A stretch of DNA of 55,223 nt from Burkholderiales bacterium (lineage in GTDB: Bacteria > Pseudomonadota > Gammaproteobacteria > Burkholderiales > Burkholderiaceae_C), in NCBI GenBank assembly GCA_025360385.1, contig JANYCG010000167.1, forward strand, positions 1 to 55,223. Direction: 5' to 3'. Positions 3-52,718 of the stretch are shown one piece after another. The first letter of the stretch is position 1. Every line of letters begins with the position of its first letter. A program made the position numbers and the translations under genes. The notes under the pieces were generated by a model. The model was not told where the DNA came from, made no database searches, and saw only the letters and a program-made list of their open reading frames with translations.

Positions 3-87
<85 letters not shown>

Positions 88-3474: not shown

Positions 3475-3524
3475 GCTCATTCGACGGCAAACCCGCCGCA
3501 ACTAAGCCGTCAAGGGTAAAACAA

Positions 3525-3575
3525 GGCGTAAGTTCCCGTGGGATATGCATAGTTAGCTATATTACTTATAGTAAC
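3525..3575 (+). repeat. Dispersed repeat copy A (overlaps the nnr 3' end)
   Basis: It contains GTTCCCGTGGGATATGCAT, then AGTTAGCTATATTA and a TATAGTAA end, matching the family consensus along its length. It lies between the convergent SDR and nnr genes. Its last part runs into nnr, so the final two codons and the TAA stop of nnr lie inside the repeat. Confidence 0.75.
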
Positions 3576-6542: not shown

Positions 6543-6599
6543 ATCGCCAAATGTCCCTATGGAATGGGCATAGTTAGCTATTATTTTTGAAGTATATGG
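6543..6599 (+). repeat. Dispersed repeat copy B (overlaps the amidase 3' end)
   Basis: One of the best-preserved copies: a GCCAAATG lead, GTCCCTATGGAATGGGCA, TAGTTAGCTATTATTT, then a TGAAGTATATGG end. The amidase gene on the opposite strand terminates inside it: its final SIYFKNNS and TAA stop are read from the repeat in antisense. Confidence 0.85.
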
Positions 6600-7959: not shown

Positions 7960-8271
7960 TTGAAAATGGTTCTGTGGTACACTCTTTGGGTTTTGCTGGC
8001 TATCTGAATTGGTGAATGAAAAGGGTGTTTACACGGGTGCTAAACCGGGAGCTAGACCGGGAGCTAGACCGGGAGCTAAACCGGATGTTAGTCCGCCCTG
8101 CTCAAACGCTCCAAAAAAAACGCCCTAAAGCTGCCAGCAGAATATACCAACCGCAAACCAGTCTCATCAAGGTGTTGGCGGCGCTCTGAACTGAATCAAA
8201 ATTCCTATTTTGGTTCAAGGCGCACCGTCGATAGCGGACTGGATTTTAGACTCAACCTTTTGGAGTATCAC
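7960..8271 (+). other. Intergenic region and leader between the amidase gene and rpsB
   Basis: This 312-bp gap between divergent genes must hold the promoters of both the amidase group and the large rpsB operon. A TGG-TACACT extended -10-like sequence lies at 7975-7983, without a clear -35. It also holds a 12-bp tandem repeat (8039-8086) and an A-rich stretch near 8110-8120. In E. coli S2 represses its own operon by binding the rpsB leader. I cannot identify the equivalent structure here. Confidence 0.5.
8039..8086 (+). repeat. 12-bp tandem repeat, four units, in the rpsB leader
   Basis: Four consecutive units of GCTARACCGGGA (R is A or G; the last unit ends in T) run from 8039 to 8086, followed by a decayed fifth unit. 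They contain CTAG and CCGG, unusual in this otherwise non-repetitive stretch, and lie about 185 bp upstream of the rpsB start. Confidence 0.85.
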
Positions 8272-20854: not shown

Positions 20855-22021
20855 ATGACGGGAGCGGGGGCATTCGCGGGGAAAACACCCAAGCAGGCGG
20901 CCATGGTTGCGGGCGAGGCTTCCGGCGATTTGTTGGCGTCGCTGCTGTTGGCAGGCATGGCGCAACGTTGGCCCCAGATGCAATCGGTCGGCATCGGCGG
21001 ACCCCACATGGCGGCGCGCGGTTTTGAGGCCTGGTGGCCCAGTGAAAAGTTGGCGGTGCGTGGCTATGTGGAGGTGCTGCGGCACTACCGCGAAATCGTC
21101 GGCATTCGTGAGCAGCTTAAAACCCGTCTGCTGCGCGATCCACCTGATGTGTTCATCGCTGTTGATGCGCCAGACTTCAACCTAGCGCTTGAGCATGGCC
21201 TCAAATCCAGCGGCATCAAGACGGTTCATTTCATCTGCCCGTCCATCTGGGCCTGGCGGCCACAGCGGATTGAGAAAATACGTGCAAGCGTTGATCACGT
21301 TCTTTGCATTTTCCCGTTTGAGGTGGACCTGTTGAACCGCCACGGCATCGCCGCCACGTATGTAGGGCATCCGCTGGCCAGCGTGATTCCCATGCAGGCG
21401 GACAAACAAGCGGCGCGCAACCAGCTTGGTTTGCAGGCCAGCGACACGGTGGTTGCCGTCATGCCAGGAAGCCGTCAATCTGAAATTCAATACCTCGCAC
21501 CGAGGTTCTTTGAGGCTGTAGTCCTCATGAAACATGCAAACAATGCTATTAAATTCATAGTTCCGTCAATTCCAGCCTTGGCCGCCCAGGTTGAAAAGGC
21601 GGCGCGGCAAGCGGGGGTGTCTGGTGACGTGCAAATTCTTGCCGGGCAGTCACATGCCGCATTGGCCGCCTGTGACGTCACCTTGATCGCCAGTGGCACA
21701 GCGACCCTGGAAGCCGCTCTGTTCAAACGCCCGATGGTGATTGCCTACAACATGAACTGGGTTTCGTGGCAAATCATGCGCCGCAAAAAACTGCAGGCCT
21801 GGGTGGGTTTGCCCAATATTTTGTGCCGTGAATTTGTAGTGCCCGAATTTTTACAGGACGAGGCGACACCCGAGGCCTTGTCCGCTGCCGTGCTGGACTG
21901 GCTGGCCTCGCCTGCCAGAATGATGGCCTTGCAGGACAAATTTACAGCCTTGCATGCTGACCTGACGCGTGACACCGCAAAGATTGCAACGGATGCGATT
22001 GAAAAAATCCTTCAAAACTGA
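20855..22021 (+). CDS. lpxB: Lipid-A-disaccharide synthase
   Basis: GT-B type glycosyltransferase joining UDP-2,3-diacylglucosamine and lipid X into the tetraacyl disaccharide. 388 aa. Motifs: [14 protein letters not shown] at the N-terminus, APSIWAW-like [24 protein letters not shown] in the nucleotide-binding half, and [11 protein letters not shown] stretch at 21521-21562 (encoding about [16 protein letters not shown]) resembles the dispersed repeat in DNA sequence, but the encoded residues fit the family, so the match may be chance. Confidence 0.95.
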
Positions 22022-22634
22022 ACAGATCACCCTGACTTGGGATGGCCCCGGTTTGATGGCCGGGGTGGATGAGGCCGGCCGTGGGCCCTTGGCTGGCCCG
22101 GTGGTCGCGGCCGCCGTGATTCTGGACGCCGACAACCCGATCAAGGGCCTGGACGATTCCAAAAAGCTGACGGCTGCGCGGCGCGAAAACCTGTTTGATG
22201 AAATCCGCGCCAAGGCCTTGTGCTGTTCGATTGCAGAGGCCAGCGTTGAAGAAATTGACCAGATCAACATCTTGCAAGCGACGCTGCTGGCAATGCGCCG
22301 CGCGGTGCTGGGTTTGCGCCTTAAGCCCCATAAGGTTCTGGTGGATGGCAACCGCCTGCCGGTGCTGGACGTTCTGGCTGAAGCCATCGTGCGGGGGGAC
22401 TCCCTGGTGCCCGCTATTTCTGCCGCGTCCATTTTGGCGAAAGTCCACCGTGACCGCTGGTGCGCCCAGCTGGATCAAAAATATCCACAGTATGGATTTG
22501 CGGCACACAAGGGGTATGGCACCGCCCAGCACCTGGCAGCCTTGCGGCAATTCGGTGCCTGTCCGGAACATCGCAAAACCTTTCGGCCCGTGAGCGATTT
22601 GGCAGGCATCGTCAAATTTCTGGATGTGGCATGA
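21993..22634 (+). CDS. rnhB: Ribonuclease HII
   Basis: Removes ribonucleotides misincorporated in DNA and RNA of hybrids. 213 aa. Catalytic acidic residues: Asp26 and Glu27 in [14 protein letters not shown], then VLVDGNRLP and a later Asp in [11 protein letters not shown]. The chosen ATG overlaps lpxB by 29 bp and gives a short N-terminal extension ([13 protein letters not shown]); earlier starts would lengthen the overlap. The stop overlaps the next gene (ATGA). Confidence 0.93.
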
Positions 22635-23464
22635 AGACGCATGCCCATGCCCAGGATGTGATCCACGACGCCCGACCGCCAATGGCGCTCACGACGCCCG
22701 ATCGGGTCTATATCAGCTCGCGCGACAACCCCTGGCTCAAAGACTTGCGCCGTCTCACCCAGGACAGCGCGGCTTACCGTAAGCAGGGCCGGGTCTGGAT
22801 CGAGGGCGACCATTTGTGCCGGGCTGTTCTGGCGCGGGGTCAAAAACCTGCCTTTGCCATTGTGTGCGAGTCAAATGTGCCTCTTGTCCCTGTGGAATGG
22901 GAACAGTTAGCTATTAAAACAATAGTTATGAAAGACGCACTTTTTGCCGGCATCAGTTCTCTGGAGTCACCCTCCACCCTGGCTTTCGTGATGGAGTTGC
23001 CCAAGCAGCCAGCGGTTTTGCCGAAGGCGCAGACGGTTGTGCTAGACCGGGTTCAGGACGCCGGCAATGTGGGCTCCATCTTGCGAAGCGCGGCGGCGTT
23101 TGGTGCCTTGCAAGTGCTGGCGCTCAAAGGCACGGCTGCGTTGTGGTCGCCCAAAGTGCTGCGGGCCGGCATGGGAGCCCACTTTGGCTTGCACTTGTGC
23201 GAAGGCCTTGATGTTGCTGATTTGGCGCAGATCGGGCTTCCACTGCTTGTCACCAGCTCCCATGTTGGCGATCTGCTGCAAAACCAGCGTCTGCCGCATC
23301 CTTGCACCTGGGTCATGGGCCATGAAGGGCAGGGGGTTTGCAGCGAGTTGCTGGCTATGGCCGCCTTGTCCGTGCGCATTGGCCAGCCAGGCGGAGAAGA
23401 GTCGCTGAATGTCGCGGCGGCGGCGGCCATTTGCCTTCATGCAAGCGCAGTCCAACCGCTATAA
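22631..23464 (+). CDS. SpoU/TrmH-family RNA 2'-O-methyltransferase
   Basis: SAM-dependent methyltransferase of the knotted SPOUT superfamily, acting on rRNA or tRNA ribose; the target nucleotide is not predictable. 277 aa. An N-terminal substrate-binding domain ([22 protein letters not shown]) precedes the knot motifs: [22 protein letters not shown] and [18 protein letters not shown] overlap with rnhB. A dispersed-repeat copy sits in frame at about residues 82-100, in the linker between domains. Its 3' end contains a promoter for carA. Confidence 0.9.
22875..22928 (+). repeat. Dispersed repeat copy C, in frame inside the RNA methyltransferase gene
   Basis: TGTCCCTGTGGAATGGGA followed by ACAGTTAGCTATTAAAAC and ATAGTTATG is nearly identical to copy B over its first 30 bases. 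It is read in frame as the segment around [17 protein letters not shown], without a stop codon, in the linker between the N-terminal domain and the methyltransferase knot. Confidence 0.85.
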
Positions 23465-23657: not shown

Positions 23658-24853
23658 GTGCTTTTGTCTCTCAAGGGAAACCTCCCGCACGCCATTCTGG
23701 CGCTTGCAGACGGCACGGTCTACACGGGCAATTCAATCGGAGCTTCGGGCTCCACGGTGGGCGAAGTCGTTTTCAATACCGCCATGACGGGGTATCAGGA
23801 AATTTTGACCGACCCCAGTTATTGCCAGCAGATCGTCACGCTCACCTACCCGCACATTGGCAACTATGGCGTGAACCGCCAGGATATTGAAGCCAGCCGA
23901 GTTCATGCCGCCGGTTTGGTCATCCGCGATTTGCCCCTGCTGGCGTCCAATTTTCGGCAAACCATGCCGCTTGGCGATTACCTGGCGCAAGAAAACACGG
24001 TCGCCATTGCCAATATCGACACACGCCAGCTCACGCGCCAATTGCGCAGCCAGGGTGCCCAAAACGGCTGCATTCTGGCGCTGCCTGCCGGCGTCGATTT
24101 AAGGCCGACAGATATCGACAAGGCCGTTGCAGCCGCCAAAACGGCGCCCAATATGTCGGGGCTTGACCTGGCCCGGGTTGTCAGTGCTGCGGCACCCTAC
24201 GAATGGACGCAGAGCGAGTGGCAATTGTCCAACGCCGGCTTGAACGGCCAGCCCGGTTTTGGCTCGCAAATGGCACCCAAATTCCACGTCGTCGCGTTTG
24301 ATTTCGGTGTGAAGTTCAACATTCTGCGCATGCTGGCGCAACGCGGCTGCAAGGTGACGGTCGTGCCGGCGCAAACTTCGGCCGCAGACGTGTTGAAGTA
24401 CCAACCTGACGGCGTTTTTCTGTCCAACGGCCCAGGCGACCCCGGCCCGTGCGACTACGCCATTGCGGCTGCCCGCGAGCTCATCGAGTCGGGCGTGCCA
24501 ACCTTCGGCATTTGCCTTGGCCACCAGATCATGGCACTGGCCAGCGGGGCGAAAACATTCAAAATGAAGTTTGGCCACCATGGTGCCAACCACCCGGTCA
24601 AAGACCTTGATTCTGGCCGCGTCAGCATCACCAGCCAGAACCACGGCTTCGCGGTGGATGCTGCGACGCTGCCTGCGAACATGAGGGCAACCCATGTCAG
24701 CCTTTTCGATGGCACCTTGCAAGGCCTGATGCGGACCGACAAACCTGCGTTTTGTTTTCAAGGCCACCCTGAAGCCTCGCCTGGCCCTCACGACATCAGT
24801 TATCTGTTTGACCGCTTCATCGGTTGGATGGAAAAAGCCGGGGAAAAACAATA

Positions 24854-28253: not shown

Positions 28254-28730
28254 ATGGCCACCATTCCCATCACAAAACGCGGCTCAGAAAAACTCAAGGC
28301 TGAACTGCACAAACTGAAAACAGTCGACCGCCCCTGGGTCATCAACGCCATCGCAGAGGCGCGAGCCCAAGGCGACTTGAGCGAAAACGCGGAATACGAG
28401 GTGGCCAAAGACCGTCAGGGCTTTATCGAGGGCCGAATTCAAGAAGTCGAAGGCAAGTTGTCGGCCTGCCAGATCATTGACCCGGCCAGCTTGGACGCTG
28501 AAGGCAAAGTGGTGTTTGGCTCCACCGTTGAGCTCGAAGACGAAGACACATCGAAACGCGTGACCTACCAAATTGTGGGTGAAGACGAGGCCGACCTCAA
28601 GCTGGGCTTGGTCAACATCGGCTCTCCCATCGCCCGGGCGCTGATTGGCAAAGAAGAGGGTGATTCTGTTGAGGTGCAGGCACCGGGCGGCCTCAAGCAT
28701 TTTGAAATCATTTCGGTGCGTTACGTTTAA
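28254..28730 (+). CDS. greA: Transcription elongation factor GreA
   Basis: Rescues backtracked RNA polymerase by stimulating cleavage of the 3' RNA end through the secondary channel. 158 aa: N-terminal coiled coil with the acidic tip (ARAQGDLSENAEYEVAKD) and a C-terminal FKBP-like domain (VFGSTVELEDEDT, IGKEEGDSVEVQAPGG). It follows carB by 118 bp, with a CATAAT sequence at about 28169 as a possible -10. Confidence 0.96.
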   Translation: MATIPITKRGSEKLKAELHKLKTVDRPWVINAIAEARAQGDLSENAEYEVAKDRQGFIEGRIQEVEGKLSACQIIDPASLDAEGKVVFGSTVELEDEDTSKRVTYQIVGEDEADLKLGLVNIGSPIARALIGKEEGDSVEVQAPGGLKHFEIISVRYV

Positions 28731-28742
28731 ACCCCACTCGGC

Positions 28743-29174
28743 ATGAGGCGGCTTTCAGTTTGGATTGGCGCCCTTTGGTGGGGCAGCTTGGCCACGCTGG
28801 CTTGCCTGGTGGTGCCCCTGCTTTTTGCGCACCTGCCGACGCCTGCCATGGCCGGCCACCTGGCCGCGAAACTGTTCACGGCACAGACTTGGGTGTCGGT
28901 GGCCTGCGCACTGCTGCTGTTGTTGATTTCAACACGAAAAGAGCTGGATGTCCTTGACGAGTATGCCTATTCAGCTATTATTTATATAGTAGGCGGCATG
29001 TTGCTGGCGCTGTTGTCCGAGTTTGCAGTGGCGCCAAAAATCGTCGCCCGGGAGAACTTGAAGTTGTGGCACAGCGTGGGCAGCGTGATGTACCTTGTGC
29101 AATGGCTGTGTGCTGGCATGACATTCTGGAAACTGCTTTCATACCATCAGGCCAGCCACCACGGCCACGGTTGA
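28743..29174 (+). CDS. DUF4149 integral membrane protein
   Basis: 143-aa protein with four hydrophobic segments, of the DUF4149 (TMEM205-like) family, function unknown. Conserved-looking features: WWGSLATLACLVVPLLFAHL at the N-terminus, AGHLAAKLFTAQTW, and the final helix around HSVGSVMYLVQWL. It follows greA by 12 bp, a common place for this family in betaproteobacteria. The middle segment (about residues 70-84, DVLDEYAYSAIIYIV) is encoded by a copy of the dispersed repeat and links helices 2 and 3. Confidence 0.8.
   Translation: MRRLSVWIGALWWGSLATLACLVVPLLFAHLPTPAMAGHLAAKLFTAQTWVSVACALLLLLISTRKELDVLDEYAYSAIIYIVGGMLLALLSEFAVAPKIVARENLKLWHSVGSVMYLVQWLCAGMTFWKLLSYHQASHHGHG
28949..28992 (+). 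repeat. Dispersed repeat copy E, in frame inside the DUF4149 gene
   Basis: It begins TGTCCTTGACGAGTATGCC and continues to TCAGCTATTATTTATATAGT, matching the family over both halves. Reading frame is kept with no stop; it encodes LDEYAYSAIIYIV. It lies in a loop between membrane segments, where extra residues are most easily tolerated. Confidence 0.75.
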
Positions 29175-32535: not shown

Positions 32536-32592
32536 TCATTCTTCAAAAAATAGAGCAAACTATGTAGCTCTCATAAGGACATTCGGCTTTTT
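32536..32592 (-). repeat. Dispersed repeat copy F (intergenic, ftsH-folP)
   Basis: On the minus strand: AAAAGCCGAATGTCCTTATG, then CATAGTTTGCTCTATTTTTT and GAAGAATGAAGG. It aligns end to end with copy B. It fills much of the 148-bp gap between ftsH and folP. Confidence 0.8.
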
Positions 32593-32620: not shown

Positions 32621-33562
32621 ATGAACTGGCAAACCTCTCGCTTTTCAATTGACCTTGCCAGCCCCAAGGTGATGGGCATTGTCAACGTCACGCCGGATTC
32701 GTTTTCGGACGGTGGCCACCATGACTCCACCGTGGCGGCGCTGCGCCATTGCGAGAACCTTCTCAAAGCCGGCGCGGACATTCTGGACATTGGCGGCGAG
32801 TCGTCGCGGCCCGGTGCCCAGCCATTGCCCTTGCAAGCTGAGCTGGACCGTGTCGTTCCCCTGGTGGCCGAGGCGGTCAAGTTGGGCGTTCCGATTTCGG
32901 TGGACACCTACAAACCCGCAGTCATGCAGGCGGTGCTGGATTTAGGCGCTGACATCATCAATGACATTCGGGCCCTGCACGCGAATGCACCGCTGTTGCA
33001 AGACAGCCGGGTTACACCGCAGCAGTTGGGCAGAGGCGACGCCAACCAGGACCTTGCGCCAGCGCTTGCGGCTCTGGGCGTGGTCGGCGCCCACCCCAAC
33101 TGCGGCATCTGCCTGATGCACATGCACCGGGACCCCCAGACCATGCAGCTGCAGACCATGCAGGGTGATGTTGTGCCACAGATACTATTATTTTGGAAGC
33201 AAGCTATTGAGCAAGCAAGGGGACAAGGGGTCGATTTGTCTCGCATCGTGCTGGACCCGGGCATTGGATTCGGCAAAACCGTGCTGCAGAATTTTGAATT
33301 GCTGGCAAGGCAGGCTGAACTGCTGGAGGCAGGCCTGCCGCTCATGGTGGGCTGGTCCAGAAAATCGTCATTGGCCGTTGCCGTCAGCACCTCGCTGGCC
33401 ACCGTGGCGACGCTGGACGTGCGCGACCGCATGGTGCCCAGCGTGGCCGCCGCCGTGCTTGCGGTCGAACGCGGCGCCAGCATTGTGCGGGTGCATGATG
33501 TGCGTGAGACCGTCCAGGCCTTGAGAGTGCTCAAAACCTGCCAACAAGCTGGCAGAAAATAG
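32621..33562 (+). CDS. folP: Dihydropteroate synthase
   Basis: Condenses hydroxymethyl-dihydropterin diphosphate with p-aminobenzoate in folate synthesis; the sulfonamide target. 313 aa, TIM barrel. Motifs: [64 protein letters not shown] and RVHDV. It is about 30 residues longer than typical because of extra sequence after NDIRAL (about residues 121-147, [20 protein letters not shown] and on). A reverse dispersed-repeat copy lies near residues 187-202. In the conserved ftsH-folP-glmM order. Confidence 0.93.
33181..33226 (-). repeat. Dispersed repeat copy G, in frame inside folP (reverse orientation)
   Basis: The minus strand shows TTGTCCCCTTGCTTGCTC, then AATAGCTTGCTTCC and AAAATAATAGTATC. 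It aligns without gaps to copy I at the TCCC, AATAG, TTGCT and ATAG.AT blocks, but is more diverged than the others. It is translated as [15 protein letters not shown], in a helix whose length is normal for the family, so a chance origin cannot be excluded. Confidence 0.5.
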
Positions 33563-37116: not shown

Positions 37117-37171
37117 TAGCCGATATGTTCCCGTGAATAGGGCATAGTTTGCTATTTTATTTGAAGCATTC
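37117..37171 (+). repeat. Dispersed repeat copy H (intergenic)
   Basis: GCCGATATGTTCCCGTGAAT, then AGGGCATAGTTTGCTATTTT and ATTTGAAGCATTC. It lies just after the MFS transporter stop, in the 143-bp gap before the convergent gloB. Confidence 0.85.
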
Positions 37172-44519: not shown

Positions 44520-44577
44520 AGTTCCGTATGTTCCCGTAGGGACTTAATAGTTTGCTATTTATTATATAGCATATTCG
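44520..44577 (+). repeat. Dispersed repeat copy I (intergenic)
   Basis: GTTCCGTATGTTCCCGTAGG, then GACTTAATAGTTTGCTATTT and ATTATATAGCATATTCGG. The 3' part is a clear inverted repeat, GCTAT-N7-ATAGC. It lies in the 262-bp gap between the ppx stop and arsC. The rest of the gap (44578-44733) holds no recognisable feature. Confidence 0.85.
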
Positions 44578-45709: not shown

Positions 45710-45766
45710 AAGTGCCGAAAGTTCCCGCTGTATATGCGTAGGTAGCTTCAAAATATATAGCATTCA
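45710..45766 (+). repeat. Dispersed repeat copy J (between ppx and pstS)
   Basis: AAAGTGCCGAAAGTTCCCGC, then TGTATATGCGTAGGTAGCTT and a palindromic end ATATATAGCATTC. It begins 14 bp from the ppx start and lies 93 bp upstream of the pstS PHO box. Confidence 0.8.
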
Positions 45767-52661: not shown

Positions 52662-52718
52662 AAAGTGCCAAAAATCCCTATGCATGCTAAATAGTGTGCT
52701 ACTAAATATGTAGTATCC
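52662..52718 (+). repeat. Dispersed repeat copy K (overlaps the crcB 3' end)
   Basis: AAAGTGCCAAAAATCCCTAT, then GCATGCTAAATAGTGTGCTA and AATATGTAGTATCC. It sits between convergent phoR and crcB. The crcB C-terminus (WILHI) and its TAG stop are read from the reverse strand of the repeat. Confidence 0.8.

Follow-up and report, generated by a model that had tools for sequence, protein, structure and literature searches.

A dispersed repeat has one of its copies, copy C, inside a gene for an RNA methyltransferase, and this locus therefore raises the question of how a repeat comes to be read as protein and what keeps it similar to its relatives elsewhere in the genome. The stretch of DNA that was analysed, hereafter the window, comprises 55,223 nucleotides (contig JANYCG010000167.1 of assembly GCA_025360385.1) from a Burkholderiales bacterium with a genome of 4.1 Mb, whose relatives are Comamonadaceae.

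Coding and dispersed copies of the repeat in the window

Copy C occupies positions 22876-22927 of the forward strand and, as an earlier note on this DNA had proposed, is read in frame without a stop, in an open reading frame at 22460-23464 with an ATG at 22631. The gene (22631..23464, +) encodes a SpoU/TrmH-family RNA 2'-O-methyltransferase with a YsgA/RlmR-like fold (PF00588, 1.2e-27; top Foldseek matches 7qiu and 9h1k), of which copy C covers residues about 82-99. The right arm of the copy, at 22910..22925 (+), matches the pattern GCTAT-N7-ATAG exactly, and its codons GCT ATT AAA ACA ATA are read as A I K T I. The near-identity reported between copy C and copy B, which lies at 6543..6594 (+) outside the genes called by a crude gene caller and scores 52.8 bits, was also found, with 27 of 30 bases in agreement and 31 of 42 over a longer stretch. 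A chance resemblance of copy C to the repeat is ruled out: a PWM trained on 38 copies from the same genome, all of them outside the window, assigns it 53.3 bits, the third highest score in the window, against a top score of 17.1 bits in 40 simulated windows. Genome-wide, 134 places match a 24-letter element pattern with at most three mismatches (control, 0), and there are 69 exact GCTAT-N7-ATAGC right arms.

Copy C is not the element's lone coding case, since two other genes in the window hold copies in the same frame. The first of these is lpxB (20855..22021, +; PF02684, TIGR00215), encoding lipid-A-disaccharide synthase, with a copy at 21511..21562 (+) that reads A I K F I V and scores 30.4 bits; its rare codons are kept in 78 orthologues. 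The other encodes a DUF4149 protein (28743-29174; PF13664) and carries a sense copy at 28940..28991 (+), reading A I I Y I V and scoring 44.9 bits; we note that this gene comes just after a 158-residue open reading frame at 28254-28730. Dispersed copies lie on the forward strand at 3522..3573 (54.6 bits), 37117..37168 (46.9 bits), 44520..44571 (57.6 bits, the highest score in the window), 45711..45762 (46.2 bits) and 52664..52715 (46.2 bits), and on the reverse strand at 32539..32590 (41.7 bits). A weak copy at 33183-33234 (-; 24.7 bits) is antisense within a gene for a pterin-binding enzyme (32621-33562).

Two other features of the window are recorded here in passing: a tandem 12-bp repeat at 8034-8093 (about CGGGAGCTAGAC), present as four overlapping 24-nucleotide copies, and a tRNA gene at 6-87 (-), at the extreme edge.

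The methyltransferase site carries no added length

One account of copy C would be a recent in-frame insertion into the methyltransferase gene, and the earlier note had accordingly predicted a lineage-specific segment of about 16-18 residues. Precedent exists in the Rickettsia palindromic elements, which are found in intergenic DNA as well as in frame inside genes and add residues by insertion; the situation here is similar in that a single genome has copies in the lpxB, methyltransferase and DUF4149 genes as well as outside called genes. The open frame and the identity of copy C to another copy at 27 of 30 bases also fit an insertion. Alignment of the orthologues argues strongly against it. 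The 22-residue segment has an identical length in all 110 aligned rows (its own and 109 family orthologue rows, best-matching loci and no random draw, representing 102 distinct proteins), two orthologue rows having six additional residues right before it, and no orthologue examined is without it. Nor are the 27 outgroup loci, which belong to other Burkholderiales families and are the best-scoring of 112 matching outside the family, shorter by some 18 residues: the stretch equivalent to residues 76-106 is of the same length in one, three residues shorter in one and two to nine residues longer in 25, with residues in the segment largely unrelated to those of the window's protein. E. coli LpxB aligns at the lpxB coding site with no gap, and solved methyltransferase homologues differ in length by about four residues. 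These comparisons show that the coding site is native to the gene and has gained no length, and that the coding copies, unlike those of the Rickettsia elements, are not insertions relative to orthologues. The 48-54 bp length that was credited with keeping the frame upon insertion preserves nothing, because nothing was added, and we regard a recent insertion as scarcely credible.

The segment had also been described as the linker between the substrate-binding domain and the SPOUT knot. A Pfam match to the MRM3-like substrate-binding domain (21.9 bits, under its cut-off of 27) spans residues 33-116, however, and in a predicted model residues 80-100 form a helix (80-85), a second helix (88-93) and a strand (96-100), with a mean pLDDT of 84.6. 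The Pfam range and the model thus reject the linker location: the segment is part of the substrate-binding domain itself, in which it makes these short helices and the strand.

Rare codons are conserved at the coding sites

If the sequence is native, its resemblance to the repeat might reflect the protein, a conserved peptide motif happening to back-translate to repeat-like DNA. The peptide P-L-A-P-x-x-x-A-Q-A-A-I-K-x-I-V is indeed widespread in the family. Its codons, however, are unusual. Among 80 named orthologue loci, residue 94 is encoded by GCT in 65 and residue 98 by ATA in 54, compared with backgrounds of about 12% of alanine codons and about 6% of isoleucine codons in four genes, and the two occur together in 66 of 102 distinct segments. 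In the window's own methyltransferase gene the sole ATA (residue 98) and the sole TTA (residue 93) both fall within the segment. A scan for codon constraint places its top window in the methyltransferase gene at this segment and its top window in lpxB, 1.3 kb upstream, at codons 221-237, which share the frame and the AIKxIV ending of the methyltransferase segment. These rare codons stay while the residues between them vary, the amino acids track the local repeat variant (see below), and chance is excluded by the PWM score, so that conservation at the protein level, or coincidence, is a very improbable explanation. The earlier note had looked to distant genera for the same amino acids written in different codons; most sampled orthologues instead keep the same rare codons, and element-poor genomes are mostly without them.

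Codon constraint is even higher at the N-terminal ends of rnhB (34-79 rows) and carA (69 rows; window position 23658 onward), where it probably reflects start-region effects and gene overlap, the start of rnhB overlapping the end of lpxB.

The protein nonetheless sets limits. In the frame of the gene a stop is present in 116 of 260 dispersed copies from 20 genomes and in none of 161 coding sites. Of the 41 copies from the window's genome, 32 would end translation at codon -2, which is CAG in the methyltransferase gene. Protein selection is thus resisting element sequence at the coding sites.

Element-likeness of the coding sites follows element density

Element density was taken as the count of GCTAT-N7-ATAGC in 299 genomes of the family, which ranges from 0 to 317 exact right arms per genome (control, 0 to 7). 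The two coding sites were scored, to a maximum of 12, in 97 genomes: the window's genome, 80 drawn from a match list ordered by similarity to its methyltransferase, and 16 chosen deliberately later, including sparse members of dense genera. Element-likeness correlates with density at the methyltransferase site (rho 0.75, n=97) and at the lpxB site (rho 0.59, n=96). With genomes classed as dense at 5 or more per Mb and as sparse under 2.5 per Mb, five intermediate genomes being excluded, the methyltransferase site scores at least 9 in 60 of 64 dense and 2 of 28 sparse genomes, and the lpxB site in 58 of 64 and 2 of 27, respectively.

This coupling is seen within lineages as well as among them. 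In genera g15, g72, g121, g89 and g128 the sparse members have methyltransferase scores below those of the densest members; for lpxB, g128 runs in the opposite direction and g89 is mixed. Phylogenetic independent contrasts for 96 genomes, on a three-gene tree with the sites masked, give r of 0.74 (methyltransferase) and 0.66 (lpxB), and in the largest fifth of density contrasts the signs agree in 19 of 19 and 18 of 19 cases. Among 772 codon-aligned windows in lpxB, rnhB and the methyltransferase gene (81 genomes), the largest dense-minus-sparse contrast falls at the two coding sites. Base composition was considered as a cause and rejected, as density and GC3 are uncorrelated (rho 0.03) and partial correlations are unchanged in the 81 genomes without the 16 later additions. 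There are exceptions: G190 is dense (170 copies) yet scores 7 and 5, the methyltransferase site is lost in G048 (71 copies) and the lpxB site in G021 and G231 (235 and 196 copies), and the sparse genomes G218 and G288 (7 and 6 copies) retain lpxB sites scoring 11-12.

Coding sites resemble the repeat variant of their own genome

The element is common in Comamonadaceae and occurs in lineage-specific 'dialects', a distinct variant preceding GCTAT in every genome tested. Visual inspection of 13 genomes first suggested this pattern, and a test followed on 20 genomes, of which seven had played no part in the inspection. G073, with two copies, was left out; the remaining 19 contributed 5 to 44 copies each, taken from stretches that omit the methyltransferase-lpxB region, and both coding sites of the window were masked. 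When sites from the same genus are excluded, the methyltransferase site ranks first in nearness to its own genome's variant in 11 of 19 genomes and among the top three in 14, and it ranks first in four of the six new genomes; the lpxB site ranks first in six of 19. Permutation gives p 5e-5 at each coding site, which is the floor of 20,000 shuffles; these assume independent genomes, whereas the set contains four same-genus pairs. In a sliding version of the test across 786 windows in three genes, residuals reach 19.5 bits at methyltransferase codon 83 and 12.7 bits at lpxB codon 220, and at most 4.9 bits in the 746 control windows outside both coding regions. Since the control windows share the same ancestry and base composition, neither alone explains the match.

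Individual genomes illustrate the point. Both coding sites of G032 hold that genome's unusual repeat block AGCCGGC, and both in G157, a member of the same genus, have the local GT ahead of GCTAT. The match is weak for the methyltransferase site in G089, G254, G141, G071 and G086, which rank 6th to 13th for their own variant, and for lpxB in G125, G231, G021 and G089, which rank 13th to 19th and in which the lpxB site has decayed. The lpxB site is thus shown to behave as the methyltransferase site does, more weakly. The proposal that the element can become protein fails in respect of insertion and stands in another sense, in that the amino acids follow each genome's own repeat variant.

Placement of the dispersed copies

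In 400 kb of genome G120, with crude gene calls, copies lie at a median of 12 nucleotides from a gene 3' end. Those in gaps between co-oriented genes are on the same strand as the genes in 17 cases and on the opposite strand in 18, and those within genes are sense in six and antisense in five. The lack of a strand preference relative to genes speaks for a role at the DNA level. A function at the RNA level is not favoured, given the random strand in this one genome with its crude calls and an Rfam search at gathering score, covering the window and four of the twenty G120 loci, that gave no match over an element copy. We note a match to RF02278, a Betaproteobacteria toxic small RNA, at L199 6918-6980 (-), clear of any element copy.

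Many positions are shared between related genomes. For each of the nine G040 copies in the stretch compared, G242 has a copy at the orthologous position. G157 has 13 copies, of which 10 could be mapped to G032, and seven of these have a partner, one displaced by about 200 nucleotides. In the reverse direction 5 of 14 copies in G242 and 10 of 17 in G032 are without a partner, some of them outside the aligned stretch. Orthologous copies are also somewhat more alike in their left part than non-orthologous ones (identities of 0.68 and 0.60 in one pair, 0.66 and 0.53 in the other).

Short repeats in large numbers, with a palindromic right arm, a position near gene 3' ends and some copies without an orthologous partner, would suit a REP- or MITE-like mobile element, and REP-like elements of this kind are common. 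Each lineage would then owe its new variant to spread by a transposase, and its coding copies would be old insertions now under protein selection. Yet the coding sites have no added length, many positions are shared between the two members of each genus pair, and a mobile element leaves the match of the coding sites to the local variant unexplained. The candidate driver, a RAYT transposase, is rejected: Y1_Tnp (PF01797) occurs in 222 of 299 genomes without tracking the element, being present in the element-free G081, G114 and G259 and absent from the element-rich G021, G141, G231 and G255. We therefore consider a mobile element of this type improbable. As a separate matter, the fourteen Y1_Tnp matches in G016, several equal in score, suggest a recently active insertion sequence.

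What keeps the copies alike

Two features of the element bear on how its copies are kept similar. The spacing of the right arm is strict, with 49 strand matches in 400 kb of G120 for a spacer of seven and 0-2 for spacers of 3-6 and 8-11; the spacer-6 pattern, used as a control, occurs 0-6 times per genome. The left part looks palindromic in some consensus sequences, but a structured left hairpin is not borne out, as pairing between left arms within genomes is no better than in shuffled arms (p>0.05) in 11 of 12 genomes, the other being G141 (p 0.026, five copies). Secondly, in six genomes the correlation between neighbouring positions of the copies is 0.04-0.23 and that between distant positions -0.02 to 0.07, as if each copy in a genome had been drawn independently about a consensus.

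The reading that we favour, with about even confidence, is that copy C represents, in the methyltransferase gene, a dispersed element of about 50 bp that operates at the level of DNA, that has lineage dialects and whose coding members are kept in step with the others, in a manner resembling DNA uptake sequences (DUS). A putative sequence-specific agent would recognise the element in its DNA form, and every tolerable site, coding sites included, would stay near the current dialect through selection or through biased recombination; uptake specificity is proposed to act likewise on DNA uptake sequences. Were the agent lost, dispersed and coding sites would be expected to decay together. Protein selection would oppose this at the coding sites, where most copies of the window's genome would bring a stop at the gene's CAG. 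A recognising agent explains both the independence of positions within copies and the sharing of orthologous positions. What counts against a recognised signal is the length and information content of the element, which exceed the needs of a single protein site: 43-54 bits are specified in seven genomes (19-21 of these in the right arm, which was used for selecting copies), compared with 12-15 bits needed to locate the sites, a rough estimate that takes the copies as four times the exact count.

This excess also speaks for the main rival, in which ectopic gene conversion or short single-strand annealing between dispersed copies and coding sites overwrites one with another, so that each new variant spreads over old copies and the coding sites are passive recipients that tolerate the element. 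Such templated overwriting accounts for how long and how detailed the shared dialect sequence is, including the long dialect-specific stretches in G032, G065 and G157, which exceed what one protein site needs, and the presence of the same unusual block at both G032 coding sites. It accords poorly with copies that resemble independent draws and with the locus memory that orthologous copies retain to some degree, and the homology is short for recombination. We judge it unlikely, although it is a good deal more plausible than a mobile element.

A broader claim is possible but doubtful, namely that non-coding repeats continually rewrite short segments of LpxB and the rRNA methyltransferase, with the dominant repeat variant, and not the descent of the enzyme, setting the residues, edited only against stops and misfolding.

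Relation to known repeats

By analogy, the nearest parallel in behaviour is the DUS dialects of Neisseriaceae, described in the available sections of the source as a dispersed DNA-level signal with lineage dialects, found inside and outside genes, with inverted pairs at terminators, a stop codon in one frame that limits placement, and absence from some genera of the family (PMC3630211). The element has a lineage variant shared across the genome, coding sites included (19 genomes, with exceptions); like DUS it lies in and out of genes, forms inverted pairs at terminators, has a stop in one frame and is missing in some genera. The two differ in scale. DUS is a 10-mer with about a thousand or more copies and a known receptor, according to the same sections (PMC3630211), and an origin of DUS by recombination is put forward in the part available of a second source (PMC2397512); the element, in contrast, is of about 50 bp and rarer, with at most 317 exact right arms per genome among 299 genomes, and a role in uptake would rest on analogy. 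The ComEC domain (PF03772) does not discriminate, as it is present in 287 of 299 genomes at any element density, and G043, which is 100% complete, is without a ComEC match yet keeps the methyltransferase site.

The repeat itself has been glimpsed before. The accessible portion of one study lists two spaced sequences as a 'potential novel motif', GCTTAT(N)5AAGCG in Acidovorax ebreus (114 copies) and ATAGCT(N)22CAAAAG in Polaromonas naphthalenivorans (125 copies), both mostly intergenic, near gene ends and sometimes in genes, with no assigned function (PMC5217627). Judged by eye, the former resembles the left half of the G120-type element and the latter contains the reverse complement of AGCTAT; that portion treats the motifs as separate and mentions no dialects, coding-site conservation or family-wide view (PMC5217627). 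BRE, a short Betaproteobacteria repeat found in Comamonadaceae among others, may be a further sighting. The available text gives it as usually intergenic with some copies wholly inside coding sequences, with a full-length form of 75-91 bp, a GC content of 69% in Bordetella, and tandem copies that vary in number, and it was compared with the element by description (PMC3110155). Among titles and abstract openings in the open-access literature, we found no description of coding sites that follow a repeat dialect in this family.

At this locus a DNA signal found throughout the genome is in conflict with protein sequence, and the conflict is legible at set positions in core genes of a whole bacterial family. 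A common and unexplained Comamonadaceae repeat thereby becomes open to functional tests, the coding sites being fixed orthologous positions at which the evolution of the repeat can be followed. The locus also carries the warning that some lineage-specific residues in LpxB and the methyltransferase may hold no information on enzyme function.

Element copies are also found within lnt and anmK of G120, at L193 (263396-263462) and L197 (342617-342683), in two different frames. The AnmK protein with its element copy matches the Pfam model over nearly its full length, which hints at further in-place coding sites.
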